A stretch of DNA of 64,000 bases from Candidatus Zixiibacteriota bacterium (GCA_040753875.1 JBFMDV010000022.1:1-64000); one strand, 5' to 3'. Shown: positions 14,332 to 43,745, counted from the stretch's first letter. Program-made: numbers and translations. Notes: generated from the letters alone by a model not told the origin.

Positions 14332-14387
14332 AGCCGCCTCAGTATGTAAATATGACATCTTCTCCATCACAGTTCTCCCATCACCCT

Positions 14388-16814: not shown

Positions 16815-16826
16815 AATCCCCAACAC

Positions 16827-17376
16827 ATAGCCTTATTCACAGCATGCGTCATCACAGGATGAGCAAGATTCGGACCAGAACACCTCTGTTGCTCGATTGG
16901 CGGCCTTTGGCTTCCGTGGCGGCCATCGATCAGTTTTTCAGCATGCCCAGGTCTTCTCTCAAGTCCCTGTAATGAGAAGCTACTTAGGGGCTTACCGGCA
17001 CTATGCCGTATCAAACTCAGTCAGTAGCGATTTGGGCGGTGGGGCCTCTCTTTGTAAAAACGGCTGTGAGGTATTGCAAGGCGGGGTGGACTCTGTAACG
17101 CGGAGTCTGCAATCGTACGCAAAGCCGCAAGCGGCTGCGCAGCAGGCCATTCTTTAACAAAGGAAATCCGGCCTAAGTAATTGACGACGACAAAGATAAC
17201 GTCAGTACAGTCACGTCGATTCAGGTCGTTGGTCATCGTCACTCTTCTCGCCGGTTCATCTCAACCGATCATTCTGTCAATCCGTTAGCTTAGTGCTCGA
17301 TTTGGTCTCCTTCCGAAGTTATCCCCCGGAAGGGCGTGTGCCTTTCCGGGGGGAAATGAAGCAGTAATCGAAATGA
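16827..17376. other. Intergenic stretch upstream of the surface-protein operon
   Basis: I see no convincing gene in these 550 bases. The part next to 17377 holds a strong stem-loop, listed separately. The part next to 16826 should carry the promoter of the surface operon, but I could not pick out convincing -35/-10 boxes. Confidence 0.5.
17322..17353 (-). terminator. Strong stem-loop 3' of the secreted dockerin protein gene
   Basis: A 13-bp stem (TCCCCCGGAA-GGG against its complement, one mismatch) closes a six-base loop, starting 24 bases after the stop codon at 17377. No U-tract follows, so it may be a 3'-end stabilising structure or a factor-assisted terminator. Confidence 0.6.
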
Positions 17377-29753: not shown

Positions 29754-31093
29754 GACCGAATGATCTTTAGGAGTTCCTTTGTTTTCGCCTCCAGCAACTT
29801 CCGGCTGTTGGCCTCGATATTAAGTCGCAGCAATGGCTCGGTGTTCGATGGTCTCAGGTTAAACCACCAGTCATCGAACTGGACCGTGAGCCCGTCGATG
29901 GTGTCCTGTTTACCCGACGCATAGGACTCTGTCACCTGTTGTATCTTAACGGGAATTGATTCCACCCGGCTGTTGATCTCGCCGGAGCGGAAATATGGGT
30001 CGATCACCTGTACCATTTCATGCAGAGGTGTTCCCTCAACGGAAATGAGCTCAAGACAGACGAGGAACGCGATCAATCCGGAGTCGGCGAACCAGTTGTC
30101 GCGGAAATAGAAGTGTCCGGAATGCTCGCCGCCAAAGATGGCATTGTTCTTTTTCATGAGCGGCTTGATCAGCGCATGACCGACCCGCGTGCGAATCGCA
30201 TTGCCCCCCAGTCGGGTGACCAACTCTGGTACCGCCCGCGAGCAGATGAGATTGTAGAGGATCGTTTCCCGGGGATGTTTACTTAACAGCGACTTGGCCA
30301 CCAGCGCCGTCACCATATCGCCGCCCAACTGGCGACCATCCTTATCTACAAGGAACATCCGGTCAGCATCGCCATCAAATGCCACACCAAAATCAGCCTT
30401 TGTCTCGGCGATTTTCTTCTGAAGGTCCCGCAGATTCTCCAGTTCAATGGGTGACGCCGGATGATTCGGGAAACTCCCGTCAAGTTCAAAAAACAGACGC
30501 GTAACTTTGACCGGCAGATGCTTGAGTACCGGCGGCAGTGTTGCTCCCGCCATGCCGTTACCGGCATCGATAACGATAGAATACGGCTTCACTTTGGTAA
30601 CATCGATAAACGACAGACAATGCCTGGCGTATTCCTCGCTGATATCCCGGCGAACCACCATCCCTTTTGTCGATGCTTCGCGAAGCCAAGTCCCCTCCTG
30701 AATCGCCTGTAACATCTGATTCAGACCTTCCGAACCGGAAAGCGGCTCGGCGTTCTTGCGGCATATCTTGAAGCCGTTGTACTCTTTTGGATTATGACTC
30801 GCCGTTATCATGACACCGCCGTCGTAGCCGAACTTCCCCACTGCAAAATAGAGCGCATCGGTGGAGATAAGTCCGAGGTCGATAACGTCAACGCCGCTGT
30901 CATTGATTCCCCGAATGAGTTGTTCCAGTAGCTCGTCGGATGAAAGGCGCATGTCCCGCCCAACCGCAATCGTTCTGCACTCGAGATAGCCGGCCAGCGC
31001 GGCGCCAATCTGGTACGCCACCTGACCATTCAACTGTCTTGGGTAAGTTCCGCGAATATCGTATGCCTTGAATATAGATGGATCTACGGGCAT
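29750..31093 (-). CDS. manB: Phosphomannomutase/phosphoglucomutase
   Basis: Alpha-D-phosphohexomutase with all four signatures: active-site Ser in TASHNPKEYNG, metal loop DGDADRMF, sugar-binding GGEHSGHFYF and phosphate-binding RPSNTEPLLR. It interconverts hexose 6- and 1-phosphates (mannose or glucose) in the cytoplasm and supplies GDP-mannose or UDP-glucose pathways. ATG 31093 has AAGGA ten bases upstream and begins MPVDPSIFKAYDIRG, the normal N-terminus; the open frame reaches a TTG at 31111. Which of the two sugars is preferred cannot be read from the sequence. It is co-transcribed with the receiver protein and probably the glycosyltransferase. Confidence 0.92.
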   Translation of the reverse strand: MPVDPSIFKAYDIRGTYPRQLNGQVAYQIGAALAGYLECRTIAVGRDMRLSSDELLEQLIRGINDSGVDVIDLGLISTDALYFAVGKFGYDGGVMITASHNPKEYNGFKICRKNAEPLSGSEGLNQMLQAIQEGTWLREASTKGMVVRRDISEEYARHCLSFIDVTKVKPYSIVIDAGNGMAGATLPPVLKHLPVKVTRLFFELDGSFPNHPASPIELENLRDLQKKIAETKADFGVAFDGDADRMFLVDKDGRQLGGDMVTALVAKSLLSKHPRETILYNLICSRAVPELVTRLGGNAIRTRVGHALIKPLMKKNNAIFGGEHSGHFYFRDNWFADSGLIAFLVCLELISVEGTPLHEMVQVIDPYFRSGEINSRVESIPVKIQQVTESYASGKQDTIDGLTVQFDDWWFNLRPSNTEPLLRLNIEANSRKLLEAKTKELLKIIRS

Positions 31094-31315
31094 GGGTATG
31101 GTGTCCTTCAATTCCTCACTGACCTTTTCCGCCAGTATCGGCTCCTCCTGTCGATTCCCCTATAGTACATTCGGCGGCCAAACGCAACTTAAAACCTTCG
31201 CTTAAGTCCCCGACCATCAACGAGTTTGCGGCTTCGTCTTTTTCGTACAAAGTCTGGTTTTCCGTATGCCGATACTAAGGGTATCGAGCATTTTCCCCCC
31301 TCAAAGGAGTAATCG

Positions 31316-31861
31316 ATGAGAAGGTACGCCCTGCCTGCTACTATGACTGTTTTCATTGTAAGTTTGGCCCTTTTGGTCTCCGGGTATCCGTCAGATTTCT
31401 TTCAAGCGCGGATCCATAGCGTGGTAGGTTGGGTTCCGAAGTCCGCTTCGGACGAGAAACCTGACATGGAAGATTCGGCCATTCCAGTTTGTAGGTCAAA
31501 ACCCCAACAGAGGATCTATGGGGGAGGGGGTTTTGACAATTCGGGAGCATCGGAGGCGGGAGATGTCAAGACCCCAACCCCGGGTTGGTCCCCTGATGGG
31601 GTCTTGACCTACAACTACCCGACCAACCGATCGGTTCGAATCGAGTACAGTCTCCCGAAGACATCCAGTGTCGATATTTCGGTATTCAACGTGATGGGCC
31701 AATGGGTCGCCGACTTGTCGCGCGGCGAGCAGCCGGCCGGACATCACACCGTACTTTGGAACGGTGCCGACTCTTTCGGCCGCCCGGTCCCTCGTGGCAC
31801 CTACATCTTCCGGATGCGGGCGAATGGATACGAGCAGATAAATACAATCGCCATGAAGTAA
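31316..31861 (+). CDS. Small secreted protein with sorting domain; palindromes inside the gene
   Basis: AAAGGAG precedes the ATG by six bases. A signal-like N-terminus (MRRYALPATMTVFIVSLALL) and a C-terminal type-9-like sorting domain (VRIEYSLPKTSSVDISVFNV ... AGHHTVLWNGADSFGRPVP ... INTIAMK) bracket a middle of about 60 residues. Almost all of that middle is encoded by three palindromic repeats (31426-31464, 31491-31537, 31564-31611), which also occur outside genes. The QNYPNPFNP motif itself is eroded to TYNYPTNRSVRIEY. So the protein is a sorting domain with a repeat-derived spacer and no evident functional domain. It may be a degenerating gene or one tolerating inserted elements. The palindrome at 31867 directly follows the stop. 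Confidence 0.7.
   Translation: MRRYALPATMTVFIVSLALLVSGYPSDFFQARIHSVVGWVPKSASDEKPDMEDSAIPVCRSKPQQRIYGGGGFDNSGASEAGDVKTPTPGWSPDGVLTYNYPTNRSVRIEYSLPKTSSVDISVFNVMGQWVADLSRGEQPAGHHTVLWNGADSFGRPVPRGTYIFRMRANGYEQINTIAMK
31426..31464. repeat. Palindromic repeat, family B (copy 1, inside a coding region)
   Basis: Begins AGGTTGGGTTCCGAAGTCCG and ends CGAGAAACCTGAC around the hairpin GTCCG-CTT-CGGAC. It matches the copy at 31867, apart from paired changes such as GTCCG/CGGAC against GTCG/CGAC, which keep the stem intact. It is read through in frame. Confidence 0.75.
31491..31537. repeat. Palindromic repeat, family C (copy 1, inside a coding region)
   Basis: Arms GTCAAAACCCC and GGGGTTTTGAC form an 11-bp perfect stem, with the outer flank TTGTAGG on the left. 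Copies are at 31564 (opposite orientation) and 61467. Confidence 0.75.
31564..31611. repeat. Palindromic repeat, family C (copy 2, inside a coding region)
   Basis: Arms GTCAAGACCCC and GGGGTCTTGAC with right flank CTAC. Relative to copy 1 the A-T pair in the stem is replaced by G-C on both arms, a compensated change. Confidence 0.75.
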
Positions 31862-31866
31862 ATCGA

Positions 31867-31907
31867 AGGTCGGGTTCCGAGGTCGCTTCGACCGAGAAAC
31901 CCGACCT
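31867..31907. repeat. Palindromic repeat, family B (copy 2, intergenic)
   Basis: AGGTCGGGTT ... AACCCGACCT closes over GGTCG-CTT-CGACC. It starts five bases after the stop at 31861 and may act as a 3' stem-loop of that transcript. Confidence 0.75.
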
Positions 31908-31921
31908 CACTGTTGTCCCGT

Positions 31922-31969
31922 TGTGTCAGGTCCTGCCGTCCGCCACAGGCGGACGGTGTGACCTGACAC
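31922..31969. repeat. Palindromic repeat, family A (copy 1)
   Basis: Outer arms GTGTCAGGTC/GACCTGACAC and inner arms CCGTCCGCC/GGCGGACGG are separated by an asymmetric internal loop (CTG against TGT), with an ACA tip. It lies between convergent genes, nine bases from the stop of the minus-strand gene. A reversed-orientation copy is at 63141. Confidence 0.8.
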
Positions 31970-31978
31970 TCTCCTTGC

Positions 31979-34900
31979 CTACTTCAACAACAACATCTTC
32001 CTCGTCTCCACAAACTCCCCCGCTTGCAGACGATACAGGTACACGCCACTGGCTGCCTCTGCGCCATCCCACCGAATGGCATGGTGCCCCGCCTCCAACG
32101 TCTGATCGAGCAGCGCCGCCACTCTCTGCCCAAGCACGTTGAACAACTCCAGCCGCACCTCCGCCGCCACCGGCAGATCAAACGATATGTCGGTACTCGG
32201 ATTGAACGGGTTGGGGTAGTTCTGGAAGAGGGTGAACAAGCCTGGGAGTTTCTCTTCGCTCTCGTGCTTATAGGCAATGTTCTCTATATCCGAAGGAATG
32301 CTGCCTGCGGGCAACATTTTACCGTAGTTGATAAAGCCTCCAATCAGGTTGGCCCCGATGTACGAGCGCAGGGGACCGTAGTGATCATACTCGGGCATCC
32401 AGCTATCCGGCAGCCACAGCACTTCCGTTCCAGGCTCGTTAATCAACATGTCGCAATAGGTGATGGCCTGACTGACAGTCATGCTGTCTTTAGTGATCGC
32501 CTGTGTTTGGCTGATCTTACACGCTGCAACATTCAGCATCAACGCCACAAGTTCGGCTTTAGCCAAACGCTTGACAAACGGTTCCTCGGTGACGACCGGC
32601 CAGAGCGGCAGCAAATCCTTGAGCGCAAGCAAACTATCGTTTTGCGTTGCCGGTTGCGGCACGGTGTAGATTTCAACAGAATTCAATCTATTGTCATTGA
32701 AATGCTGGCCAATCAAACTCGCGAAGCGCGAGAAGTCAGCGCGGGTGTACTGCTCCGGCTTATTCCAGAGCGCCTTCTGCAACTGCATCCCCCAAAAGCC
32801 ACGCGACCGGGGCACAGATGTGATTTGCGCAGGAACTAGCGTGAAGTTCACATCGACCACGTCACTACTTCCGTCGACAACGACGGTCTTGATCGAAGTG
32901 TCACAGGTGAATCCGAGAGGTGGAATTACGGCGACATGATACTCGCCGGCCATCAGCTTGCCGGTCTGGTCGAGCCTGTCGGCATCTGTGAAGAGTTGTA
33001 CAACAAGTGAATCTCGAGCGTCGTAAACATCCACTGCGACCCCCGTTGCTGAGAAGTCAGCTTCAATAGTTACCGAAATCTGAATGTGTGCACTGTCACT
33101 GGTCGACGTGGGAAGAAGCCGCGTATCTATGTGACTATCTCCATCACGGTCAATCTCCATTACAAAATTCTGCGATCCGGCCGCTATGTCGTTAAGTGTC
33201 GCGGTGGTAGTAGGAGTGCACTCTATGTTTTCATATCGGACTTCTACCGTTTGGGCGTCGTGCATAGGTAGGAACATTGAAAACGAAAACATCCCACTCT
33301 CGCGACCGAGTAAGCTTATTTGATAAGCGGAACTGGGAGGTAGTACCAAGGCTTTGGAGTGATCGAGCATGGTGCCCGATGCATATGGCGTTTGAGTAAC
33401 GACACTCCCATCGAGGTAAACGATATTGGAGTTGCCTCTATCGTCTACCGCCTGCAAGTCCATTGGGGAGCACAAGAGAAGCCCTATCCCACCACCAGGA
33501 ATATACTGACGTAATGGCAACATGGAATACTGACGCAGAGCAACACATCCATCTACAAAGACAGAGGCACATCCAGCATTCTCAAGGAATTCCGTTTGCA
33601 CTGAACTAATCACACCCAAGACCACGCCCAGAGCCTGCAGTGATCTATCCCATCGCCAATTGTGTTGATTGATATAGTCGCCGACATTGTCATTTACGCA
33701 ACCCATCGCCGAAGTGAGTGCTCTGAATACACAGTTGCCCCTTTCTTCCGCACTCAGGCTCTGGTCAAGGGCACAGGCCCCTTCTGACTGCAGTGTTAAT
33801 ATACATTCGTCAAATCGAGACAGTGCATCTGCTGTCATTCCAAGCATAGCCATCGCCCCCTTTGCCTCGTCCAACCCCGTGGCTACTATACTGATAAGTT
33901 CGAAGGCACAGTTTGAGAGAGCATCTGGGTTCGTGGCAACGGTGAAGTTTGTGAAGTAGTTGTCTATAGAAATCTGATCGCTTCCGTCAATCGGTGTGGT
34001 TCCGTCAGTTGAAGAAAGTTTCAAATATATTTGGTCAGTGTAATGCGGCGATACGAAGGTAATTGGGCTCGACCAACTTACTCGACCTTCTCGACCGCTG
34101 GGGCCAATAGCGGGGATGCGCAGTGTCGACGTGTGTGTTTCTCTGACAATCGATTCGCCTAGCCCCCATATCTTGCACCAGAATGAGTTTACGACCCCCT
34201 GATCACATCTGTCCAATACAAACAACGAACACACGACGTCAACTGGGGATGACCACGCATCGCCAATGTTTCTGACCACAAACGAGAGGTCTTGCGGAAC
34301 ACCGCAGGTAGCACCGGTCGGTAGTTCGCTGTTTCCAACCAGGGATAGTTTGGAGTAAGCCACCCCCCCGCACCCGCTCACGTCCATCAAGTAGATATCC
34401 CCGTCCGAACAAGAACTGAAAGCGATCTTCGTGCCATCCTCTGACCATGAGGGCCACGTAGCCCCCTTGCCAAAAGTGATTTGCTGCGGAGAGCTGCGAT
34501 CGAGATTTATGGTCCATAGATCACCTTGTCCACACGGCGGGGCAAAACTTGGCGCACCAAAGAAGACCAGCTTCTGGCACTGGTTTGGAGACCAGTCCAG
34601 ACCGCCACCGCCATCATTTGAATTGTTGATCCGAGTTGATACTTGGCGCTTTCCTGAACCATCAACTGCGCTCGCCACCCACACGCCGTAATTGCTGTAG
34701 CTCTCGTACGCAACTAACAGACCATCTTTTGAAAGCCGTGGGTGTGCGCCTCTGATGTTCAGTGGAGCATTCGTTCTAGTCAACAGGTTGAAACGGTACA
34801 AGTAGTCGCCGAGGTAATAGATGAGAAAGGTTCCATCAGGTGATAGCTGCGGATCGGAACCAGTGACAACAAACTCACTCGTTGCGGAGCCAATTCGTTT

Positions 34901-35248
34901 GCGGTAGATTCTCGGCTCCGCTCTTACCGTGTAATACAGCCAGTTATCCGAACTGAGAACAGGCTCGGATTCATGGGCAGGAGCATCCGTGAGTCGTTCT
35001 GGTGTCCCCCCTTCTGCAGGAACCCGAAAAATGTCGAAGTTCCCATACAGGTTGGAAGAGAAGAGCAGATACTGTCCGTCCGGTGTCCATCTCGACTCCG
35101 TCTCAAATGCAGTCGGATCATTTGCACCCGCAAGCTTGGCGGGAGTTCCGTAAGAAACCTGACCGCTCACACTCCCGCCGAAACAGGCAAGGAGTATGAA
35201 CAAGAGGGCCATAAGCCCTTTGCGCAGCATTACATACCCGTGTGCCAT
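31979..35248 (-). CDS. Secreted WD40-like (TolB-type) beta-propeller protein with sorting domain (1089 aa)
   Basis: AAAGGAGGTG lies four bases upstream of the ATG at 35248, an excellent ribosome site. A signal peptide (RKGLMALLFILLACFGGSVSG) precedes a propeller of PD40/TolB-type blades (TESRWTPDGQYLLFSSNLYG, PQLSPDGTFLIYY, PSWSEDGTKIAFSS). A CARDB-like adhesion domain (SFVVRNIGDAWSSPVDVVCS), a long middle with several Cys, and a carboxypeptidase-regulatory-like beta domain (ADRLDQTGKLMAGEYHVAV) follow. The C-terminus is a sorting domain (LFQNYPNPFNPSTDISF ... SGVYLYRLQAG ... TRKMLLLK). It is probably a surface-attached binding protein. No enzyme motif is seen. The gene is convergent with the small sorting-domain gene. 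Confidence 0.87.
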   Translation of the reverse strand: MAHGYVMLRKGLMALLFILLACFGGSVSGQVSYGTPAKLAGANDPTAFETESRWTPDGQYLLFSSNLYGNFDIFRVPAEGGTPERLTDAPAHESEPVLSSDNWLYYTVRAEPRIYRKRIGSATSEFVVTGSDPQLSPDGTFLIYYLGDYLYRFNLLTRTNAPLNIRGAHPRLSKDGLLVAYESYSNYGVWVASAVDGSGKRQVSTRINNSNDGGGGLDWSPNQCQKLVFFGAPSFAPPCGQGDLWTINLDRSSPQQITFGKGATWPSWSEDGTKIAFSSCSDGDIYLMDVSGCGGVAYSKLSLVGNSELPTGATCGVPQDLSFVVRNIGDAWSSPVDVVCSLFVLDRCDQGVVNSFWCKIWGLGESIVRETHTSTLRIPAIGPSGREGRVSWSSPITFVSPHYTDQIYLKLSSTDGTTPIDGSDQISIDNYFTNFTVATNPDALSNCAFELISIVATGLDEAKGAMAMLGMTADALSRFDECILTLQSEGACALDQSLSAEERGNCVFRALTSAMGCVNDNVGDYINQHNWRWDRSLQALGVVLGVISSVQTEFLENAGCASVFVDGCVALRQYSMLPLRQYIPGGGIGLLLCSPMDLQAVDDRGNSNIVYLDGSVVTQTPYASGTMLDHSKALVLPPSSAYQISLLGRESGMFSFSMFLPMHDAQTVEVRYENIECTPTTTATLNDIAAGSQNFVMEIDRDGDSHIDTRLLPTSTSDSAHIQISVTIEADFSATGVAVDVYDARDSLVVQLFTDADRLDQTGKLMAGEYHVAVIPPLGFTCDTSIKTVVVDGSSDVVDVNFTLVPAQITSVPRSRGFWGMQLQKALWNKPEQYTRADFSRFASLIGQHFNDNRLNSVEIYTVPQPATQNDSLLALKDLLPLWPVVTEEPFVKRLAKAELVALMLNVAACKISQTQAITKDSMTVSQAITYCDMLINEPGTEVLWLPDSWMPEYDHYGPLRSYIGANLIGGFINYGKMLPAGSIPSDIENIAYKHESEEKLPGLFTLFQNYPNPFNPSTDISFDLPVAAEVRLELFNVLGQRVAALLDQTLEAGHHAIRWDGAEAASGVYLYRLQAGEFVETRKMLLLK

Positions 35249-35400
35249 CGCACACCTCCTTTAATTGGGTAAGACGTTTTCCTTGGCGGCCACGGTGTGA
35301 CCGCCTGGGTTCTCTATATAAAGGAATAGTGGCAATGGCTCAGGTTTGCCGGAGCAGATCGCAGATTTTTTTACAGAATTGTGAAGAATTCCCCCGAGCG

Positions 35401-35442
35401 ATTCTCACGTCGGTCATGCCAAAGGCATAACCTCCTCAGAAT
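35401..35442. repeat. Imperfect palindrome between genes
   Basis: ATTCT ... AGAAT outer arms and GGTCATGCC/GGCATAACC inner arms around AAA. It starts 15 bases after the stop of the minus-strand gene at 35458, so it could serve as its terminator, or be another dispersed palindrome. Confidence 0.45.
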
Positions 35443-35457
35443 GACGGGCTTAGAGTG

Positions 35458-37674
35458 TTACCGCCCCGCTGCTCGCAATTCCCCCTCGGTCACCCACCCG
35501 GAATCGGTCCAGTATGCCACCGCGTCGTGCACCATCCCCATGTAGTCAGGGAGTAATGCAGGCGATCGTAGTTTTCCACCACTTCGAAGATCCTCACGCA
35601 CCTTCTCAAACGTGTCGTTAGGAACGGCCATCACGACACGGAAATGCTCATCCAAATAGTACAAAATCTCCGCGGTAACACCTCGCCAGAAACACTCGGC
35701 TACATGCGCAACAAGCAGTGATGAGTCCGTTGTAACAATACCCATCGGACTTGGCTGATTATAGGGTAAAGGCGAAATAGAATCACCAACTTCGGTAAAC
35801 GGAAACGACACATACACATCCTGGCTGCCGTGCTTAACCCAGGTCAGGTCCATTTCAGAATCCTCATAAGGCGGCGAACAACCGTATGCGGAATCGGGCT
35901 TTATTGCGAGAAATGACGTCCTATTGAGGCGATTATTGTAGCACAAGGCAAGAATCTCGTCGCGTCCGTCGCTATCGTGGTCCTTTGCAAGGATCGGCCG
36001 ACTGCACCCCGCGTTGATATACCATCCCAGCGAGTCCCCATTCGCACTCCAAAACCGCATATGCGATCTGGCCGGCGTGCTGGCGAAGACATTGGTGACG
36101 ATTACCGGCTTGCCGTCGACCCGAAAGACATTCAGGTCTTCACTGTCATATTGGACACCGGCCGTATCATTGGGATACTGGTTGAGGACAAAACAGTCAC
36201 GCCAGAACATCAGTTCACCTTCGCTTGAATAACAGTAGAACCGATTCCTTTCCTCACAATTCTGCTCTGATGCAGGCATGAACAGGACCTCGTCGGCCTT
36301 CGTGGTGGTATCGAGATTCGCGAATTGGATCAAGGCGATCTGGACCATGCTGTCCCGTATCTTGCACTTCGGCTCGATCGTCCACAGTTTATCCCCCTGA
36401 GCGTTGAGAACTGTGACTATATTAGTTTTCATGTTGACCGAAGCTTGTGCTGGATTCCTGTCAAACGGTTGTCCCACAATATAGACAAGCACCCCCGCCA
36501 GCACCACCAGCACCGGAACTTCCACCCACACCGTGCGACCCTTGCGGAACAACTTTCGAAGAATATACCAGAACGGATTGCGGGGCTTCCGACGGATCAA
36601 CCGCTGGTCGTCCGCGACACTCGCCAAGTCGTCAGCCCCTACCAGCTCCAGTTTCCTGCCGGGCAACACTGCTTCAAGCTCCTTCAGATACTGCCACGCC
36701 TCGCTGATATGTGCGCGGGGTATTACCAGAAACTTAAGATGCGAGTAGAACGCCCGCTTGATTTTCAGCCTCAGTCCCCCACCGTCGATCGGCGACAATT
36801 TCCCTCCGGCCGAAAGCGCACCAGTGAACGATGCCTGCGGGGGCACGCTCAGACGCTCGCGAAACAGCTCCACTTTCTCGACCGCCACAATTGCGCCCAC
36901 CGCAAACGCCACGCCGAGCGAATCGCCGGTGAATCGCGCGCCGCTAGAGTTTACCTCGAACGTAAACTGATAGTGCTTCTTGAACGGAAGACCATAGTGG
37001 TCCAAGAGATACTGCCGTGCGGCCTGAACCGAGTCGCGCGCCTGCGCCAGAAAACGGTCGTCCGGCTTTTCCGTGGGGTTCTTGACCACCACGTCGTCCT
37101 CGCCCCGCTTCCTGCCGGTCAACGGCAGGGCCGAGACCGCCAGCGTCAGAATTCTCCCGCGAGGAGCCAGCGCTGTTTCGGACTCCGGATAGTCCTCCAC
37201 GAACAGGCAATTGACATTCACCGCGGATGCATGATCTGCACGCTCCTGTGTTTCGAGTGGCGCGGCGATCGCACTGTAGGTGCTTTCTATCAACGCACCG
37301 AGACGTATGAACGGTTCCACGTCACTGGGTGCGACAATTGATGTCGGTTGTGCCTTGAGCAGATCAAGAAACACGGCGAGAAGCGAAATTTCATCCGGCA
37401 AAAACTCATGCGGCCTGGATTTACCTGCAAACGGAACCAGCAGCGGCAGGAATTCCCGTAGGTACGGTTCCAACGCCCGCGACGTGGAGGACTGATACTT
37501 CTCGAAAAAAGCCAAGCCAAGGAGGAGCCGCAATTCTGCGGGAATCTGTTCGTTGTGAAGCGAGCGACGGAGCCGGTTGGCATCACTTTCCATTTCAAGA
37601 AAGGAGATCATAGGCCACTCTTTCAGGGATGACTGGAATCGAGGCATTTTCAACAAGCCCCGGCATGCGCGCAC
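35458..37674 (-). CDS. Transmembrane Lon-like protease with extracytoplasmic FG-GAP-like sensor
   Basis: Residues about 1-180 are mostly helical. Residues 235-325 match the Lon/S16 proteolytic fold: FTGDSLGVAFAVGAIV with candidate nucleophile Ser252 (the place of Lon's G-P-S-A-G Ser), then ASFTGALSAGGKLSPIDGGG and LRLKIK with Lys304 at the position of the catalytic Lys, ending FLVIPR. There is no AAA+ ATPase domain. A basic stretch and one membrane segment (about 382-402, VEVPVLVVLAGVLVYIVG) put the protease inside and about 330 C-terminal residues outside; that part contains an FG-GAP-like calcium loop (DHDSDGRDEILAL). The start is uncertain: GTG 37674, ATG 37647 or ATG 37611 (AAAGAG upstream). 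It is last in an operon with a zinc-finger protein and a helical protein. Signal-driven proteolysis of the operon partners is inference. Confidence 0.8.
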   Translation of the reverse strand: MRACRGLLKMPRFQSSLKEWPMISFLEMESDANRLRRSLHNEQIPAELRLLLGLAFFEKYQSSTSRALEPYLREFLPLLVPFAGKSRPHEFLPDEISLLAVFLDLLKAQPTSIVAPSDVEPFIRLGALIESTYSAIAAPLETQERADHASAVNVNCLFVEDYPESETALAPRGRILTLAVSALPLTGRKRGEDDVVVKNPTEKPDDRFLAQARDSVQAARQYLLDHYGLPFKKHYQFTFEVNSSGARFTGDSLGVAFAVGAIVAVEKVELFRERLSVPPQASFTGALSAGGKLSPIDGGGLRLKIKRAFYSHLKFLVIPRAHISEAWQYLKELEAVLPGRKLELVGADDLASVADDQRLIRRKPRNPFWYILRKLFRKGRTVWVEVPVLVVLAGVLVYIVGQPFDRNPAQASVNMKTNIVTVLNAQGDKLWTIEPKCKIRDSMVQIALIQFANLDTTTKADEVLFMPASEQNCEERNRFYCYSSEGELMFWRDCFVLNQYPNDTAGVQYDSEDLNVFRVDGKPVIVTNVFASTPARSHMRFWSANGDSLGWYINAGCSRPILAKDHDSDGRDEILALCYNNRLNRTSFLAIKPDSAYGCSPPYEDSEMDLTWVKHGSQDVYVSFPFTEVGDSISPLPYNQPSPMGIVTTDSSLLVAHVAECFWRGVTAEILYYLDEHFRVVMAVPNDTFEKVREDLRSGGKLRSPALLPDYMGMVHDAVAYWTDSGWVTEGELRAAGR

Positions 37675-37746
37675 TAGAGTCCCAATATTCTGACCAAGGA
37701 TTTGAGCAATTCTCGCACATCGACGACCCCCGCATCACTGCACCCC

Positions 37747-38577
37747 CTACTGAAACAAGAAAATCTCAATCGGCTCCACGGCTTTGACATTCTCCACGGC
37801 GGCCCGTTGCGGACGGCTCGTACTCAGCAGCACTATATCGGCACTGCTCCCCTCGCGCACCGCCACCCGTATCGGAGTATCGCCCGTCAATCCGGTCAGA
37901 TTCAGGATCTCTATCTCCACCCGTTTCGTCCGCTCCGACTCCGTCAGCACCACCCGGATCTGGTCACCGTTGGCGGCGGTGAGTGTGGCGCTCTTCTCTT
38001 CTTCGCGCCATTGCAGCGGCGTGAGCGTAAACAGGGCCAGCGGCAGGCGCACTTCGGCCGTGTACATGTCGGGCGCCGGCCATTCGGCTTTGCCCAGATT
38101 GATTCGCCCCTCCGGATCGGTGAGAAACTCGCGCTCCAGACCAAACGGACGAACCAGCACGTTTCGATACATAGCGGGATCCTCGTGGACCAGGAACAAC
38201 CAGATTTCACCCGTGCGAACATCGCGCACTGCTTTGAGGATTAGTTGCTGGTCATCCGACGCGAGCGTAACCGCGACCGGCGGCCGTGACTCAGCCTCCG
38301 CCTTCGCGGCTAATCGGAGGCTCATATCGCCGGCCTCGCGCGGGTCCTGCCAATGTCTGAGGTGAACCACGCGCGCGGTTCCGACAGCCCGGTACGATTC
38401 AGCCACCGCTGACAGTTCGTTCAGGAGGTGAGCCACAACAAACCGACAATTCGGGCAGTGTTGCAGATGATCATCTGATGCCGTAGCGCCGGCTGTTTTT
38501 TCGTCGAGCAGATACCGTACCCAATCATCGCTCGTAGGGCAGGTCGATCCGTTCATTTGACTCAGGTCCTTGCGCAT
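37747..38577 (-). CDS. Zinc-finger (anti-sigma-like) protein with beta-rich C-terminal domain
   Basis: ATG 38577 is chosen because GAGG lies eight bases upstream; the frame extends to a GTG at 38613. The N-terminus shows the zf-HC2/ZAS layout: PTSDDWVRYLLDEK, then HLQHCPNC, the H-x3-C-x2-C metal motif of anti-sigma factors. Unlike most of those, it has no membrane segment. The next 190 residues are beta-rich (VAVTLASDDQQLILKAVRD; RVEIEILNLTG; IRVAVREGSSADIVLLS) and unfamiliar. It lies between the helical-protein gene (86+ bases upstream) and the Lon-like protease gene (72 bases downstream). A role as adaptor or protease-controlled regulator is suggested by context only. Confidence 0.75.
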   Translation of the reverse strand: MRKDLSQMNGSTCPTSDDWVRYLLDEKTAGATASDDHLQHCPNCRFVVAHLLNELSAVAESYRAVGTARVVHLRHWQDPREAGDMSLRLAAKAEAESRPPVAVTLASDDQQLILKAVRDVRTGEIWLFLVHEDPAMYRNVLVRPFGLEREFLTDPEGRINLGKAEWPAPDMYTAEVRLPLALFTLTPLQWREEEKSATLTAANGDQIRVVLTESERTKRVEIEILNLTGLTGDTPIRVAVREGSSADIVLLSTSRPQRAAVENVKAVEPIEIFLFQ

Positions 38578-38699
38578 CCGCTCATCCTCACGTTCGGCGT
38601 TGGCCGGTTCCACGCCCTGTGCCGTCTCCCTTGCCCCAAGTGCCGTTCCCTGCTGTCCTCATATTACTATAGTGACGATCCGACACCTTTGCCGCCGGA

Positions 38700-39728
38700 T
38701 TAACCGTAAAATTCGCGCAAAATTTCAGAAAAACGGCCCTTGGCCCACAGGGCTACGTCATCGAATCTGCGATATTCCAGCCGGTAGGATTCTCCAGTCA
38801 GCCCAGGCACAAATTCCTGGAGATAGTGCCAGTAGCAACTGTGGTCCCCTGTCTCGACCAGGTCGGCAAGCAGCCGTTCGACAGCCTTTGTGAAAATATG
38901 CGATAATCTTGTGTCTCCCCCGGTCTCATCGTTGAGCTTTTGAAGGTGCGAAGGCAGTTCAACCATGACCTTCCCTGCCGCCTCCCTGGCCGCCAACTTG
39001 AGCTTGATGTTTTCAGTCGGCGTGTCGTTCTGTTCAGCGTATATATCGAACGCCAGCTTCCGATCCGCATCGCGCAGCGCCAGAAACAAGAGCTCCCTCG
39101 GTATCGCCGCCTGTTTGCGGGTCTCGGCAGCCACTTCCTGTAGAATCGCATTCACTCGGTCAGCCAGCTTCTTGTGCGGACCTGCCTGCGCCATCACGAT
39201 TGACAACAGCTCCGGCAAGGTCCACAGTTCCGCTGTCTCCCGGTAATCCGGAAGGTCTGCCAGTCCGACGAATTGCGCGTCAACGGAAGGAAAGCACCGA
39301 AAGCGCGGATCTTTGTGCAGAACCTCCCGCAACAGCCGGTGAAGCCGCGCTGCGTTGGGATCAGTCTCCCGCCATCGATGATACAATTCGTAGTCAACCG
39401 TTTGACTCACCGCATGCCGGAAACACAACACGACTGTTGCCAGGTCCCCTTTGACAGTCTCGCCCATCCCCTTGGCCAGTTTGCCTGATTCACCCGGCTT
39501 ATCGAACAGAGGTGCCACCAGCGATTTGACCATAGCTTCGAATTCAACCCCCTCCCGCTCCCTTGCGCTTGCGATCCGATAGTGAAGCGCCGGGTGGAAA
39601 CGAACGATTACAAGTGCGGCCGCCAACAGACGCTCACAGCATCCTTTCGTCGGCGTCCCGTCGCACCAGTCGCGAATATCCTGCACCAATGCGCGAAGTG
39701 CATCTCGATCGTAGGCGGGTAAATGCAT
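38700..39728 (-). CDS. Helical cytoplasmic protein of unknown family, first gene of Lon-like protease operon
   Basis: 342 residues, almost wholly alpha-helical by composition, with no signal peptide, membrane segment or recognised enzymatic motif. Segments such as VDYELYHRWRETDPNAARLH and DDVALWAKGRFSEILREFYG stand out. Because the next gene encodes a ZAS-type zinc finger normally paired with sigma factors, a divergent sigma-like or DNA-associated role is possible, but I see no clear sigma region 2 or 4. A strong sigma70-like promoter lies 52-80 bases upstream, so this is the first gene of the operon. Confidence 0.7.
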   Translation of the reverse strand: MHLPAYDRDALRALVQDIRDWCDGTPTKGCCERLLAAALVIVRFHPALHYRIASAREREGVEFEAMVKSLVAPLFDKPGESGKLAKGMGETVKGDLATVVLCFRHAVSQTVDYELYHRWRETDPNAARLHRLLREVLHKDPRFRCFPSVDAQFVGLADLPDYRETAELWTLPELLSIVMAQAGPHKKLADRVNAILQEVAAETRKQAAIPRELLFLALRDADRKLAFDIYAEQNDTPTENIKLKLAAREAAGKVMVELPSHLQKLNDETGGDTRLSHIFTKAVERLLADLVETGDHSCYWHYLQEFVPGLTGESYRLEYRRFDDVALWAKGRFSEILREFYG

Positions 39729-39779
39729 GCTGTCCGTAATGCGAGCTAGCCATGCCCTTTGTCTGTGAAATCCCGCTAA

Positions 39780-39808
39780 AGTATACCAAACGACCCCTAT
39801 TCATGCAA
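39780..39808 (-). promoter_or_regulatory. Sigma70-like promoter of the Lon-like protease operon
   Basis: On the minus strand TTGCAT, 17 bases, TATACT. The -10 box is about 52 bases from the ATG at 39728, leaving a leader of about 45 nucleotides. Confidence 0.7.
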
Positions 39809-39865
39809 GAGATTTGGCGTATATGAATGGGAGTTGAAAGCGAGCGCTGATACCACGCGCCGTGA

Positions 39866-41098
39866 CTAAACCGCCTGCGCGAACTGCTTCAGCACGTTCA
39901 AAACGTAGTCGATATCGTGCGCCGTGTGGTCGGCATTGATCTGAAATCGAATCAACTGTTCCCCCCGTGGCACTACCGGATAATTCAGCCCGGTCGCAAG
40001 CACGCCATGATCGCGAAGGAACTTCACAAGTCGGGTCGTTCGCTCAGTATCACGCACTAACAGCGGTGTCACCGGGTGTGGGCTCGCCAGCGTTTCATAG
40101 CCAAGTGCAATCATTCCCTTTTCAAACCGCTCCGTCATGGCATGCAAATGCGCCAGGAGCTTGTGCCCCTCATCGCTTTGCAAAATTTCCAGCGATGCCA
40201 GCGCCGCGGCCGCTTCTGGTGGTGTGATTGGGTTAGTGTAGATATACAGCGAGCACTTCTCGCGAAGATACCTGATGATCTCCTTGCTCGACACCACATA
40301 CCCGCCGTTCACACCCAGCGCTTTGCCCAGCGTGGCAACAAGGATATCGACTCCTTTGGCGTTCATCAGCTCCTCGGTGCCGCGGCCATTCTTGCCGAGT
40401 GCTCCGACACCGTGTGAGTCATCTACCATAAGGACAATATCACGCGGAAACTCGTGATTGTACTTGTCTGTCAGCGCGCAAATCTGGTCAAGCGGAGCGA
40501 GCACACCACGCATGCTGAACACGCCGTCGGTAATAATCAGAAGGTTATCACAGCGTCCGATCGATTCTTTGATACCCTCTTCGAGATCGTACATGTTGAG
40601 ATGCTTGTACACCTTCTTGTCTTTCGGACGCGCCATCCGCATGCCGTTGATAATGCAGTTATGATTGAGCTCATCTGAAATGATGATTGTCTCCGATGTT
40701 GTCAGACTGGTGATGACACCGAGCACAGAGGAGTACGCCGAACTCGTGAGCATGCACGCCTCACGGCCATGAAACGCAGCGAGCCGTTGTTCCAGTTCGA
40801 CATGCACGTCGTATGTGCCACTGATAAACCGTACCGCGCCGGGCCCGACACCATATTTGTGCGCGGCGGTCTCTTCGGCCCGAATGACTTTTTCACGGAG
40901 CGACATGCCGAGATACGAGTTGGAGTTCATGCGGATAAACTCCTGGTCGCCAAAACCGTGAAGTTTGAACCGTGCCCCTTTGTCTCCCGTTGGTGGAATC
41001 ACTTCGACGACGATCAGCTCTTCCCCCTTGGCGACTCCGCCTGCCTGGAGCATCTCGATCTCAGATGTGAGATTTTTGACAAATCGTTTCAGCGGCAT
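39866..41098 (-). CDS. Alpha-oxoamine synthase (BioF/Kbl-like, PLP-dependent)
   Basis: Fold-type I PLP enzyme of the family that condenses an amino acid with an acyl-CoA (8-amino-7-oxononanoate synthase, 2-amino-3-ketobutyrate CoA ligase, serine palmitoyltransferase). Landmarks: MNSNSYLGMS near the N-terminus, GPGAVRFISGTYDVHVELE, LMVDDSHGVGALG with the PLP-binding Asp, and ATLGKALGVNGG with the Schiff-base Lys. ATG 41098 gives MPLKRFVKNLTSEIEML, a normal family start; the frame extends to 41233 but those residues look untranslated. The extra N-terminal domain (IVVEVIPPTGDKGARFKLHG) replaces the usual start. No biotin or lipid genes are adjacent, so the substrate is not assigned. A second, clearer Kbl is at 47533. 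Confidence 0.85.
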   Translation of the reverse strand: MPLKRFVKNLTSEIEMLQAGGVAKGEELIVVEVIPPTGDKGARFKLHGFGDQEFIRMNSNSYLGMSLREKVIRAEETAAHKYGVGPGAVRFISGTYDVHVELEQRLAAFHGREACMLTSSAYSSVLGVITSLTTSETIIISDELNHNCIINGMRMARPKDKKVYKHLNMYDLEEGIKESIGRCDNLLIITDGVFSMRGVLAPLDQICALTDKYNHEFPRDIVLMVDDSHGVGALGKNGRGTEELMNAKGVDILVATLGKALGVNGGYVVSSKEIIRYLREKCSLYIYTNPITPPEAAAALASLEILQSDEGHKLLAHLHAMTERFEKGMIALGYETLASPHPVTPLLVRDTERTTRLVKFLRDHGVLATGLNYPVVPRGEQLIRFQINADHTAHDIDYVLNVLKQFAQAV

Positions 41099-41398
41099 GG
41101 CAGCAGCGAATCTTTCGTGGTCTAAGTATATCCAGTTACGGTTGTTTTGCGGTCGGTAATATAGGGGAATGGAGCTAAGGTGCAAGAGGGAACACCAGTC
41201 TGTTAAGTCACTCACAAATCGGGCTACAGACAAAAAAACTTCACTTCTCTCAACATTTCATTTGACACTTAGGGTACTGATTGCGTCATATAGTCAAGTT
41301 TGGGTGAGGGACCCGAGAGGCGGAGGGATCGCCCCATCGAGCCCCAATTAAGCTGAAAAAAACTGTGAGCGCATTGAAATGTGTTCGAAGGAGGGGTA

Positions 41399-41647
41399 AT
41401 GGATCAAGCTCGGCGCCGCACTGCGCACTTGTGGCCAGTTATTCTCGTTTCTGTTCTGCAGGTATCAATGGGTACCAGAGCAGCAGCATCTCAAGCAGAA
41501 CCGGTACAGATTTCACCTATTGAGCGAGCAATGCTTGCAATGAAGGCATTGGAGGATGCCATCAACGATCCGAACCCGCTCAATCTTTCTATGATTGAAG
41601 CACTGTTTCCGCCGGACGAGTGGCCATGTGGCCCTATCATCGAATAA
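41399..41647 (+). CDS. Small exported peptide of unknown function
   Basis: Preceded by GAAGGAGG with an ideal gap to the ATG at 41399. The 82 residues begin with a typical signal peptide (MDQARRRTAHLWPVILVSVL, ending AAASQA). The mature part is about 48 residues, acidic, with a helical stretch (ISPIERAMLAMKALEDAIND) and one Cys near the C-terminus (EWPCGPIIE). No family is recognised. It stands alone between a minus-strand oxoamine synthase and the lipoprotein gene at 41850. Confidence 0.6.
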   Translation: MDQARRRTAHLWPVILVSVLQVSMGTRAAASQAEPVQISPIERAMLAMKALEDAINDPNPLNLSMIEALFPPDEWPCGPIIE

Positions 41648-41764
41648 AACGAAATAATTGACCGATTATTCAATTATGATTTGTATCCGGCATCCGTTTG
41701 TCAACGAGATTGTTCGGAGCTATTATTTATTTTGCAGGTCCGCAATGGCAAGTGCAGAAAACGC

Positions 41765-41794
41765 TTGCATATATAGTCAAGGAAGCCATATTAA
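41765..41794 (+). promoter_or_regulatory. Possible sigma70 promoter of the Ycf48-like lipoprotein gene
   Basis: TTGCAT, 18 bases, TATTAA in an AT-rich stretch, 55 bases before the ATG at 41850. The surrounding 41648-41849 is gene-free. Confidence 0.45.
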
Positions 41795-41849
41795 TTTTTA
41801 GGTCATACAATATCCGCCACGGGTAACAGCCTCTCGAACCGGTGTAGTT

Positions 41850-43745
41850 ATGTCGCCATCAACACGTGTTCTCACAATCGCTGCTTCTCTGGCACTCATT
41901 CAGCTCGGATGTACCAGTGACTCTGACCGAAGCATCACGCCGGGCGGCCATGACTATCCTGATGCGCCCGGCTGGGTGGAACAGAACCCTTCCCCAACCG
42001 CCAAATCGCTGCGCGAAGTGTACTTTGTCTCTGCGACCGAAGGCTGGGCGGTCGGCAATTTCGGGATCATTCTGCACACCACTGATGGCGGCGAACACTG
42101 GATGACTCAGCAGTCGACCGCTGGTGATCTGTGGGGGGTGTATTTCTGCGATGCCCGCCACGGCTGGTCAGTCGGCGATGACGGCACGATCGTAGCCACC
42201 GACGACGGTGGCGTAACCTGGCGGCAGCAACAGAGCGGAACGACCGAAAGCCTCTGGGATGTCTGGTTTGTCGATACCCTGAAGGGAGTGGCGGTAGGCA
42301 TCCGGAATACTGTCCTTCGCACAATTGACGGCGGAGAGACGTGGCAATCCAAAGACATCGGTCTGGATCGCAACGGCTTGCGCAATTTCCTCACGGGTCT
42401 ATATTTCCTCAACGACAGTGTCGGCTGGTTGGTCGGGCTGAATGGCACGGTAGGCTATACTACCGATGGGGGCGAGAATTGGTCGCGGCGCGACCACGGC
42501 TCCGGCTCATTCCGACGCGTTTGGTTTGTCAACGATACGGTAGGCTATGTGGCCTGCCAGTTTGGCTGGGTTTTGAAAACCACCAACGCCGGCCTTACCT
42601 GGTCGATCATCTACCGAGCCCTGCCCGACATCGATCTGTCTGATGTCGTCTTCACCGATGAAAGTCACGGCTGGATAGTCGGCAATTTCGGCTTTCTGGC
42701 CAGTACCACGGACGGCGGCCAGATCTGGCAAATACTACCGACCGGCACCGATGCTTGGCTGACCGGTTTGTCATTTCCCTCTGCTGACACAGGCTGGATC
42801 GTCGGTGACGGCGGGCAGATACTGCGTAGTACAGATGCTGGCCAGACTTGGCAGAGAAAGACCCGAGGGATAACAGGTGATTTGTACGACGGCGATTTCG
42901 TCAATGATGCTACCGGCTGGGTCGTCGGTGAGAATGGTACCATCCTGCATACGACCGATCGGGGTTGGCATTGGCAGGAACAGGCGAGTGGCACGGCCAA
43001 CACACTGTACAACGCCGATTTCGTGGACGATCAGACTGGCTGGGTGGTTGGTTCGGGCGGGACGATACTGAGCACGACTACCGGCGGCCGACAGTGGGCT
43101 CAGCAATCGTCCGGTACTGCCGCCATGCTGCTCGGCTTGCGCTTTCTTGATGCTTCGCACGGCTGGGCAGCCGGCAGCAGTGGTACGCTGCTCAGTACAA
43201 ACGATGGGGGAATAACCTGGACTAAACACGAAATTGGCACTACCAACACTCTATGGTCAGTAGAATTTGTTTCGCCAGCCCGGGGCTGGATCGCCGGAAA
43301 TCGGCTGGTTCTTCGGACCGACGACAGCGGCCGTACCTGGCAACCGGATCCGGGAGTCGTGCCGGAGCAGTACGATCTCACGGTGCAATGCGTGCAGGTT
43401 CGTTTTATCACTGATTCGCTAGGTTGGATTGCCGGTCTTCCGGGGGTTACCTACATCACGCGAGATGCCGGTAACACATGGGAAGTAAGCCATATTCCTA
43501 CTGTTGCTAACTATTTCAACCTGTGGTGTCTCTCCGATCAGGTCGTCTGGGCGGTTGGTGATAAGTACGTGGGCGGTACCCCCCCCATCATGTACTACAG
43601 CACCGACAGGGCGTTAACGTGGACACGAATTTATCCGCAGCACAACAACAGCATCAATGGCATCTTCTTCTGGGATCAGAAGCTTGGCTGGCTGTTTGGC
43701 GATCATGGCATGATTTTGCACACTACTACCTGCGGCATTGAGTAG
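41850..43745 (+). CDS. Ycf48-like (BNR/photosystem-assembly-type) propeller lipoprotein
   Basis: A lipoprotein signal (TIAASLALIQLGC, lipobox L-G-C at about residue 21) puts it in the periplasm or on the outer membrane. The mature part is about a dozen Ycf48-type blades of the form GW-x-VG-x-x-G-T-I-L-x-TTDGG-x-TW, e.g. GWAVGNFGIILHTTDGG and GWVVGENGTILHTTDRG. Such propellers act as protein-assembly or binding platforms; no catalytic residues are visible. The IS element begins four bases after the stop. Confidence 0.85.
   Translation: MSPSTRVLTIAASLALIQLGCTSDSDRSITPGGHDYPDAPGWVEQNPSPTAKSLREVYFVSATEGWAVGNFGIILHTTDGGEHWMTQQSTAGDLWGVYFCDARHGWSVGDDGTIVATDDGGVTWRQQQSGTTESLWDVWFVDTLKGVAVGIRNTVLRTIDGGETWQSKDIGLDRNGLRNFLTGLYFLNDSVGWLVGLNGTVGYTTDGGENWSRRDHGSGSFRRVWFVNDTVGYVACQFGWVLKTTNAGLTWSIIYRALPDIDLSDVVFTDESHGWIVGNFGFLASTTDGGQIWQILPTGTDAWLTGLSFPSADTGWIVGDGGQILRSTDAGQTWQRKTRGITGDLYDGDFVNDATGWVVGENGTILHTTDRGWHWQEQASGTANTLYNADFVDDQTGWVVGSGGTILSTTTGGRQWAQQSSGTAAMLLGLRFLDASHGWAAGSSGTLLSTNDGGITWTKHEIGTTNTLWSVEFVSPARGWIAGNRLVLRTDDSGRTWQPDPGVVPEQYDLTVQCVQVRFITDSLGWIAGLPGVTYITRDAGNTWEVSHIPTVANYFNLWCLSDQVVWAVGDKYVGGTPPIMYYSTDRALTWTRIYPQHNNSINGIFFWDQKLGWLFGDHGMILHTTTCGIE

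Follow-up and report, generated by a model that had tools for sequence, protein, structure and literature searches.

A conserved four-gene cassette of Candidatus Zixiibacteriota, with a transmembrane Lon-type protease, a zinc-finger protein and a promoter-like motif, as a candidate signalling module with a secreted output

We analysed a window of 64,000 nucleotides, the whole stretch of DNA under study, which is contig C22 (JBFMDV010000022.1:1-64000) of the 3.3 Mb genome of a Candidatus Zixiibacteriota bacterium (GCA_040753875.1). It carries a cassette of minus-strand genes coding for a helical protein (P0001), a zinc-finger protein (P0002), a membrane protease of the Lon type (P0003) and a predicted secreted protein (gene 4). 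The cassette is conserved and has four members, the trio and gene 4. We propose that it works as a self-contained transmembrane signalling system; all the evidence is derived from sequence. An initial annotation of the window had described the trio as a three-gene operon, and the three collinear minus-strand open reading frames (ORFs), together with the TGDSLG and GGLRLK stretches of the last one, were located where it had placed them. The features of the locus are as follows.

39780..39808 (-), sigma70-like promoter of P0001, TTGCAT-N17-TATACT
38700..39728 (-), P0001, ORF of 342 amino acids, made of helices and a single beta hairpin; candidate transcription factor with promoter specificity, either sigma-like or an activator
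38669..38698 (-), motif copy 1 (CCGGCGGCAAAGGTGTCGGATCGTCACTAT), immediately behind the stop codon of P0001 and ahead of P0002
37747..38613 (-), P0002, 288 amino acids, with a zinc-binding anti-sigma (ZAS) finger, a long helix and two beta-sandwiches like those of immunoglobulin or fibronectin type III domains (Ig/FN3-like)
38446..38541 (-), ZAS finger of P0002, Cys25 ... His49-x3-Cys53-x2-Cys56
35458..37674 (-), P0003, ORF of 738 amino acids: N-terminal helical part, S16 domain, transmembrane helix, outer FG-GAP-like part
36625..37227 (-), S16 (Lon-type) protease domain of P0003, residues ~150-350, no AAA+, by profile comparison
36919..36921 (-), predicted catalytic Ser252 codon, invariant in 37/37
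36763..36765 (-), predicted catalytic Lys304 codon, invariant in 37/37
36475..36531 (-), single transmembrane helix of P0003, residues 382-400, positive inside
35461..36474 (-), outer part of P0003, FG-GAP-like and Cys-containing, proposed sensor; FG-GAP_3 in 16/34 members
35326..35355 (-), motif copy 2 (GCTCCGGCAAACCTGAGCCATTGCCACTAT), ahead of gene 4, 20.2 bits
31979..35248 (-), gene 4, 1089 amino acids, predicted secreted PD40 beta-propeller with a type IX sorting tail, proposed output

By protein comparison, P0003 was detected in 36 and P0001 in 11 of 146 related genomes, and a P0001 profile run on 132 genomes of the phylum matched 38 of them. Named relatives of the cassette belong mostly to Candidatus Zixiibacteriota. 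From the gene tables of the fetched regions, made with a simple ORF caller, we counted 37 loci having P0001, P0002 and P0003 in identical order and on the same strand, mostly from Zixibacteria and one (L094) from an Abyssobacteria genome; kinship among the loci inflates some of the counts given here. The three-gene order that the initial annotation expected in other genomes is thus present. Most of the other loci are interrupted by contig ends, and a few carry fragments. The reading frames of P0002 and P0003 commonly overlap by 4 nucleotides in the gene tables. The cassettes fall into two subtypes, type A (which includes the window) and type B, and both coexist in two genomes, G008 and G103. 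The whole trio was also found, in the same order and with very low similarity, in a genome of high GC content that was not part of the phylum sample (L251, G246:C22, 7818-11783, minus strand; E-values 2e-11 for P0001, 4e-4 for P0002 and 1.5e-30 for P0003), which lies in the neighbourhood of the Abyssobacteria genome carrying L094. Several cassette copies per genome, with up to four P0001 matches, were seen in G103 and G115. Two further loci (L084 and L085) were rejected as P0003 homologues, being outside the family. Taken singly, the three proteins have almost no database matches, and no paper on this gene set was found in a literature search. A defence system and an RNA element in the intergenic regions were also considered and dropped, as we obtained no PADLOC match for the locus and no Rfam match within 31000-42000 of the window.

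P0003 is, by the fold and the dyad predicted from its sequence, an ATPase-free S16 (Lon-type) protease. When profile hidden Markov models were compared (HMM-HMM, hhalign), its domain aligned to 29 S16 domains taken from Lon of related genomes with a probability of 95.9% (E 5.7e-9), and Ser252 and Lys304 fell on the Lon Ser and Lys in the same alignment. It also matched Archaeoglobus fulgidus LonB in a PDB profile search (E 4e-5), Pfam Lon_C was matched in 10 of 34 members, and the P0003 profile picks up Lon-sized proteins at their S16 positions in many other genomes. Both dyad residues are invariant in 37/37 P0003 proteins, and Ser and Lys were also found, by eye, at matching places in the distant L251 and L243 proteins. 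No Walker A motif was present in any P0003 member and no AAA domain was matched in the Pfam scan; judged from its sequence P0003 is therefore not a Lon protease proper, which has an AAA+ ATPase domain. These results bear out the ATPase-free Lon-like domain of the initial annotation and the conservation of its two residues. Its statement that the dyad is spaced as in Lon did not hold, as the residues are 52 apart with an insert between them. In Lon the spacing is 43 (S679/K722 in Escherichia coli, S509/K552 in A. fulgidus).

The single membrane segment and exterior FG-GAP-like part that had been described were likewise recovered, FG-GAP_3 (Pfam) being found in 16 of 34 members. No SAVED domain was matched in the Pfam scan of the family. 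Basic residues are enriched N-terminal of the transmembrane helix in nearly all members; therefore, the protease domain is expected on the cytoplasmic side of the membrane and the FG-GAP-like part on the exterior. The start of P0003 suggested by sequence is Met22, near 37611, because the homologues point there.

P0002 is, on sequence grounds, a ZAS anti-sigma-type finger protein. His49, Cys53 and Cys56 are invariant across 31 sequences, and type A proteins have Cys, type B proteins His, as the first zinc ligand. Pfam zf-HC2 was matched by 17 of 31 members, the P0002 of the window alone being below detection, and the P0002 profile matches RsiW and RslA in the PDB. Its predicted structure (predicted local distance difference test, pLDDT, 87) has the finger, a long helix and the two Ig/FN3-like sandwiches, with fold matches of low TM-score. 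P0002 showed no membrane segment. The finger and the missing anchor agree with what had been read from the window alone.

P0001 is the invariable partner of P0002. Its AlphaFold2 (AF2) model is confident (pLDDT 91.8) and consists of helices and a single beta hairpin; at residues 124-156 a helix followed by the hairpin resembles a winged helix. No Pfam match was obtained among 30 members, and by sequence nothing significant was found in Pfam, NCBIfam, PADLOC or the PDB.

Of the 35 loci that include downstream sequence, about 29 have as the next gene on the same strand one for a large protein with an N-terminal export-like segment (by eye) and a terminal type IX tail or dockerin, or beta-propeller repeats. 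In the window it matches PD40 (1.1e-18) and Por_Secre_tail (27.6 bits against a cut-off of 27). The genome has 43 Por_Secre_tail proteins in total, so that a regular presence of such a gene after the trio is unlikely to be due to chance. Three more type IX tail proteins lie close together in the window at 11695-17613 on the minus strand (Por_Secre_tail at 11695, 14400 and 17389), and a 631-residue protein at 41850-43745 on the plus strand has repeated 'GWAVG..TILHTTDGGxTW' units that look Ycf48/BNR-like by eye.

Between P0003 and gene 4 we observed a bipartite motif, TTTTCYRCAAA-N10-GG..CTAT, and a second copy before P0002; the two copies of the window have GGCAAA-N14-ACTAT in common. Gaps of 9-17 were permitted in the motif search, which used leave-one-out scoring, and before gene 4 the identical 10-nt gap recurred in 24 of 31 loci, those used for the final matrix. 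Matches above 17 bits numbered 28 in 1.77 million positions, almost all at cassette sites, and 0 in shuffled sequence. The sites before P0002 had a median of 6.6 bits (-10.5 when shuffled). The same matrix scan did not find the motif before P0001 or P0003. The P0002-side copy of type A begins right behind the stop codon of P0001 and lies in non-coding DNA. In type B its distance from the P0002 start is almost constant, the motif beginning ~60 nt before that start in most loci, and its distance from the P0001 stop varies. The type B motif ends 26-36 nt before P0002 in most loci, and therefore there is no room for a separate downstream core promoter. We infer that the motif is a promoter. The single promoter for three genes of the initial annotation is probably wrong, a second promoter-like element being present between P0001 and P0002.

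The sigma70-like promoter itself (TTGCAT-N17-TATACT, 39808-39780) is where it had been placed; it is weak, with 8/12 consensus positions, and lies below the threshold of our scanner, and relatives have stronger sites there. Sigma70-type sites with at least 10/12 positions occur in the P0001 upstream regions of 17 of 39 loci, with 0.7 expected. The same scan gave no sigma70-type sites in the upstream regions of gene 4.

A genome-wide regulon was not supported. The strict pattern had 14 matches in 146 genomes, 9 of them at cassette sites next to P0003, and a reversed-pattern control gave about 12 scattered matches. In the genome of the window, copy 2 is the sole exact match of its pattern, and therefore the system looks dedicated to its own locus. 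Outside the standard sites, a short contig (L196, G109:C601) of a genome with no cassette listed carries an exact motif ahead of a gene whose secreted product is similar to gene 4 of L049/L051, and a motif-like site of 10.8 bits was seen after P0003 in L251 (at 7736). At L052, downstream of gene 4, a 24.8-bit motif (15308-15337, plus strand) precedes a gene for an extracytoplasmic function (ECF) sigma factor (15543-16145; Sigma70_r2 E 9e-12), which may be an extra target or a hint at an ECF sigma as the reader.

The two motif copies of one locus covary (p=1e-4 in type A, p=0.038 in type B), and the spacers of type A show no such covariation. At motif position 7, the ten type A loci that have both sites all carry G at each of them, and in type B 16 of 18 carry A at each site. 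G008 and G103 each contain both the type A and the type B version. A lone sigma factor of the host would not be expected to keep the two versions apart within a genome, as a factor encoded by each locus would; the reader of the motif is probably encoded within the locus. P0001 is the sole candidate in the cassette, and it would be the protein that reads the motif.

The mechanism that we propose is as follows. P0001 would be made from an ordinary sigma70 promoter and would be kept inactive by binding of the cytoplasmic ZAS protein P0002. The FG-GAP-like outer part of P0003 would bind a ligand or surface as the presumed outer signal, and P0003 would probably cluster, as CalpL does, and so become active. 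The ATPase-free Ser-Lys domain of P0003, on the cytoplasmic side, would then cut P0002. Freed P0001 would direct RNA polymerase to the bipartite promoter in the manner of a sigma factor, leading to transcription of P0002-P0003 as feedback and of gene 4, whose product would be a secreted beta-propeller protein for the cell surface. The computed support consists of the conserved trio, the S16 fold and dyad, the topology, the ZAS finger, the two covarying motif copies, the sigma70 promoter of P0001 and gene 4. This is the simplest reading given what is known of anti-sigma systems and the precedent of CalpL/CalpT/CalpS from type III CRISPR, where an oligomerising Lon protease cuts the anti-sigma factor of an ECF sigma (PMC11417357). 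We assign a probability of about 0.5 to a self-contained transmembrane signalling cassette with P0001 as a sigma-like factor, P0002 as its antagonist, P0003 as the protease and gene 4 as the output. The direction given by the initial annotation, from an outside signal through cytoplasmic proteolysis to a freed partner, is still the best reading, with proteolysis and binding presumed; the output through the motif promoters and gene 4 had been missed.

Several observations weigh against this proposal. P0001 showed a probability of at most 1.2% in hhalign against 13 sigma factors and then 42 Zixibacterial ones, and a Foldseek search of the PDB and BFVD gave no significant match; its best viral fold match was a phage sigma factor (E 0.24, not significant), which is a lead only. 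P0001 thus has no detectable homology to Sigma70 or ECF sigma factors (Sigma70_r2/r4) by sequence, profile or fold. The cleavage of P0002 by P0003 is presumed rather than proven. Covariation alone does not prove that P0001 reads the motif, as a linked motif and trio also share their ancestry. The matrix by which the motif sites were selected had been trained on those before gene 4. The P0002-side motif of type B lies partly within P0001 coding sequence, and some of its conservation may be coding-derived. Finally, at L148 (G088) P0001 and P0002, with a motif before P0002, have no adjacent P0003 and are followed by opposite-strand genes. A bolder version, that P0001 founds a family of promoter-specificity factors unrelated in sequence to sigma70 and sigma54, with its own bipartite promoter and under the control of an antagonist with a zinc finger and of a transmembrane protease of the Lon type that is gated by a ligand, in a one-cassette, one-target module, is tentative and appears doubtful at present.

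The absence of sigma homology in P0001 also favours two other explanations of the motif. It could be read by an ordinary ECF sigma encoded elsewhere, the trio tuning that sigma and P0001 being an accessory (co-anti-sigma, adaptor or P0003 substrate). ZAS fingers normally bind sigma70-family factors, 7-24 Sigma70_r2 proteins are present per cassette genome, and at L052 the motif precedes a true ECF sigma gene. However, the motif versions track the cassette type and not the genome in G008 and G103, the trio has no ECF gene as a regular neighbour and P0001 is always there beside P0002; we consider this explanation unlikely. Alternatively, P0001 could be a DNA-binding activator or repressor working with sigma70, with the motif as its operator rather than a full promoter and P0002 and P0003 still in control. 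The modelled helix and beta hairpin at residues 124-156, as in winged helices, would suit such a role. The motif, however, has two short blocks at a fixed spacing with CTAT at the place of a -10 element, the space at P0002 is too small for a separate downstream promoter and no sigma70-like site lies near gene 4, so that an operator is rather improbable.

Two further explanations concern P0003. It could serve in the quality control or processing of the secreted protein or of P0003 itself, with P0001 and P0002 as unrelated regulators travelling along. This would fit the FG-GAP-like outer part of P0003 beside a gene 4 that is often a propeller, and S16 proteases are able to degrade many substrates. 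The S16 domain is predicted to be cytoplasmic and the gene 4 product to be exported, however, and the frequent 4-nt overlap suggests translational coupling of P0002 and P0003, which leaves this explanation very unlikely. We judge it equally improbable that the S16 domain is a non-catalytic scaffold binding P0002: the dyad spacing of 52 and the missing ATPase could be read in this way, but Ser252 and Lys304 do not vary in any of the 37 proteins and are kept at corresponding places, by eye, in L251 and L243.

If the proposed signalling cassette is compared with known systems, CalpL/CalpT/CalpS is the one whose working it would share, with an ATPase-free Lon-type protease, a soluble anti-sigma protein and a transcription factor; activation by oligomerisation is plausible in the cassette too. 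The sensor is SAVED/cA4 (cyclic tetra-adenylate) in the CRISPR system and a membrane-spanning protein with an FG-GAP part in the cassette, which has a ZAS protein as its proposed anti-factor, no sigma recognisable in P0001 and a secreted protein as its proposed output; having neither SAVED nor a recognisable sigma, the cassette stands outside that group. The initial annotation knew of no described pathway with this trio, which is upheld for the gene set, but the principle has this precedent (PMC11417357). In Craspase (Csx29/Csx30/CASP-sigma), a signal-activated, ATP-independent protease likewise cuts a sigma inhibitor, with a CHAT protease and an RNA trigger instead, and CASP-sigma is a clear ECF sigma (HHpred 100%; PMC10028731).

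P0002 shares the H-x3-C-x2-C finger and the upstream Cys/His with the ZAS anti-sigma factors RsiW, RslA and ChrR. In contrast to these, it is soluble with two Ig-like domains, its partner is not a known sigma and its presumed protease is encoded next door and itself carries the sensor. According to the parts of a review of non-canonical ECF regulation considered here, soluble ZAS anti-sigma factors answer mainly cytoplasmic signals, for example oxidative stress, and these parts do not mention a transmembrane S16 protease (PMC8999054). With Lon and LonB, P0003 has the S16 fold and Ser-Lys dyad in common; it differs in having no AAA+, the 52-residue dyad spacing, an N-terminal helical part, and a transmembrane helix and outer FG-GAP-like part after the protease domain. 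PorXY-SigP resembles the cassette in that regulation is tied to type IX sorted surface proteins, but it is a two-component system with an ECF sigma that controls the secretion machine and not one cargo, and no homologous parts were identified in the cassette (PMC4800418).

The wiring proposed for the cassette would lead from a membrane protease through a zinc-finger inhibitor and an unclassified helical protein to one large secreted protein with its own special promoter, and it is not known to have been described. Known anti-sigma systems use multi-step regulated intramembrane proteolysis. If our proposal is true, a single protein of the cassette, with sensor and protease in one chain, would carry the signal through the membrane, and Lon-type anti-sigma cleavage would extend beyond CRISPR immunity. 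Three protein families that so far lack an annotation would also gain a function, and the cassette offers a ready-made set of promoter, factor and sensor for testing. Should P0001 prove to be a true initiation factor, one more family would join the very few of that kind.

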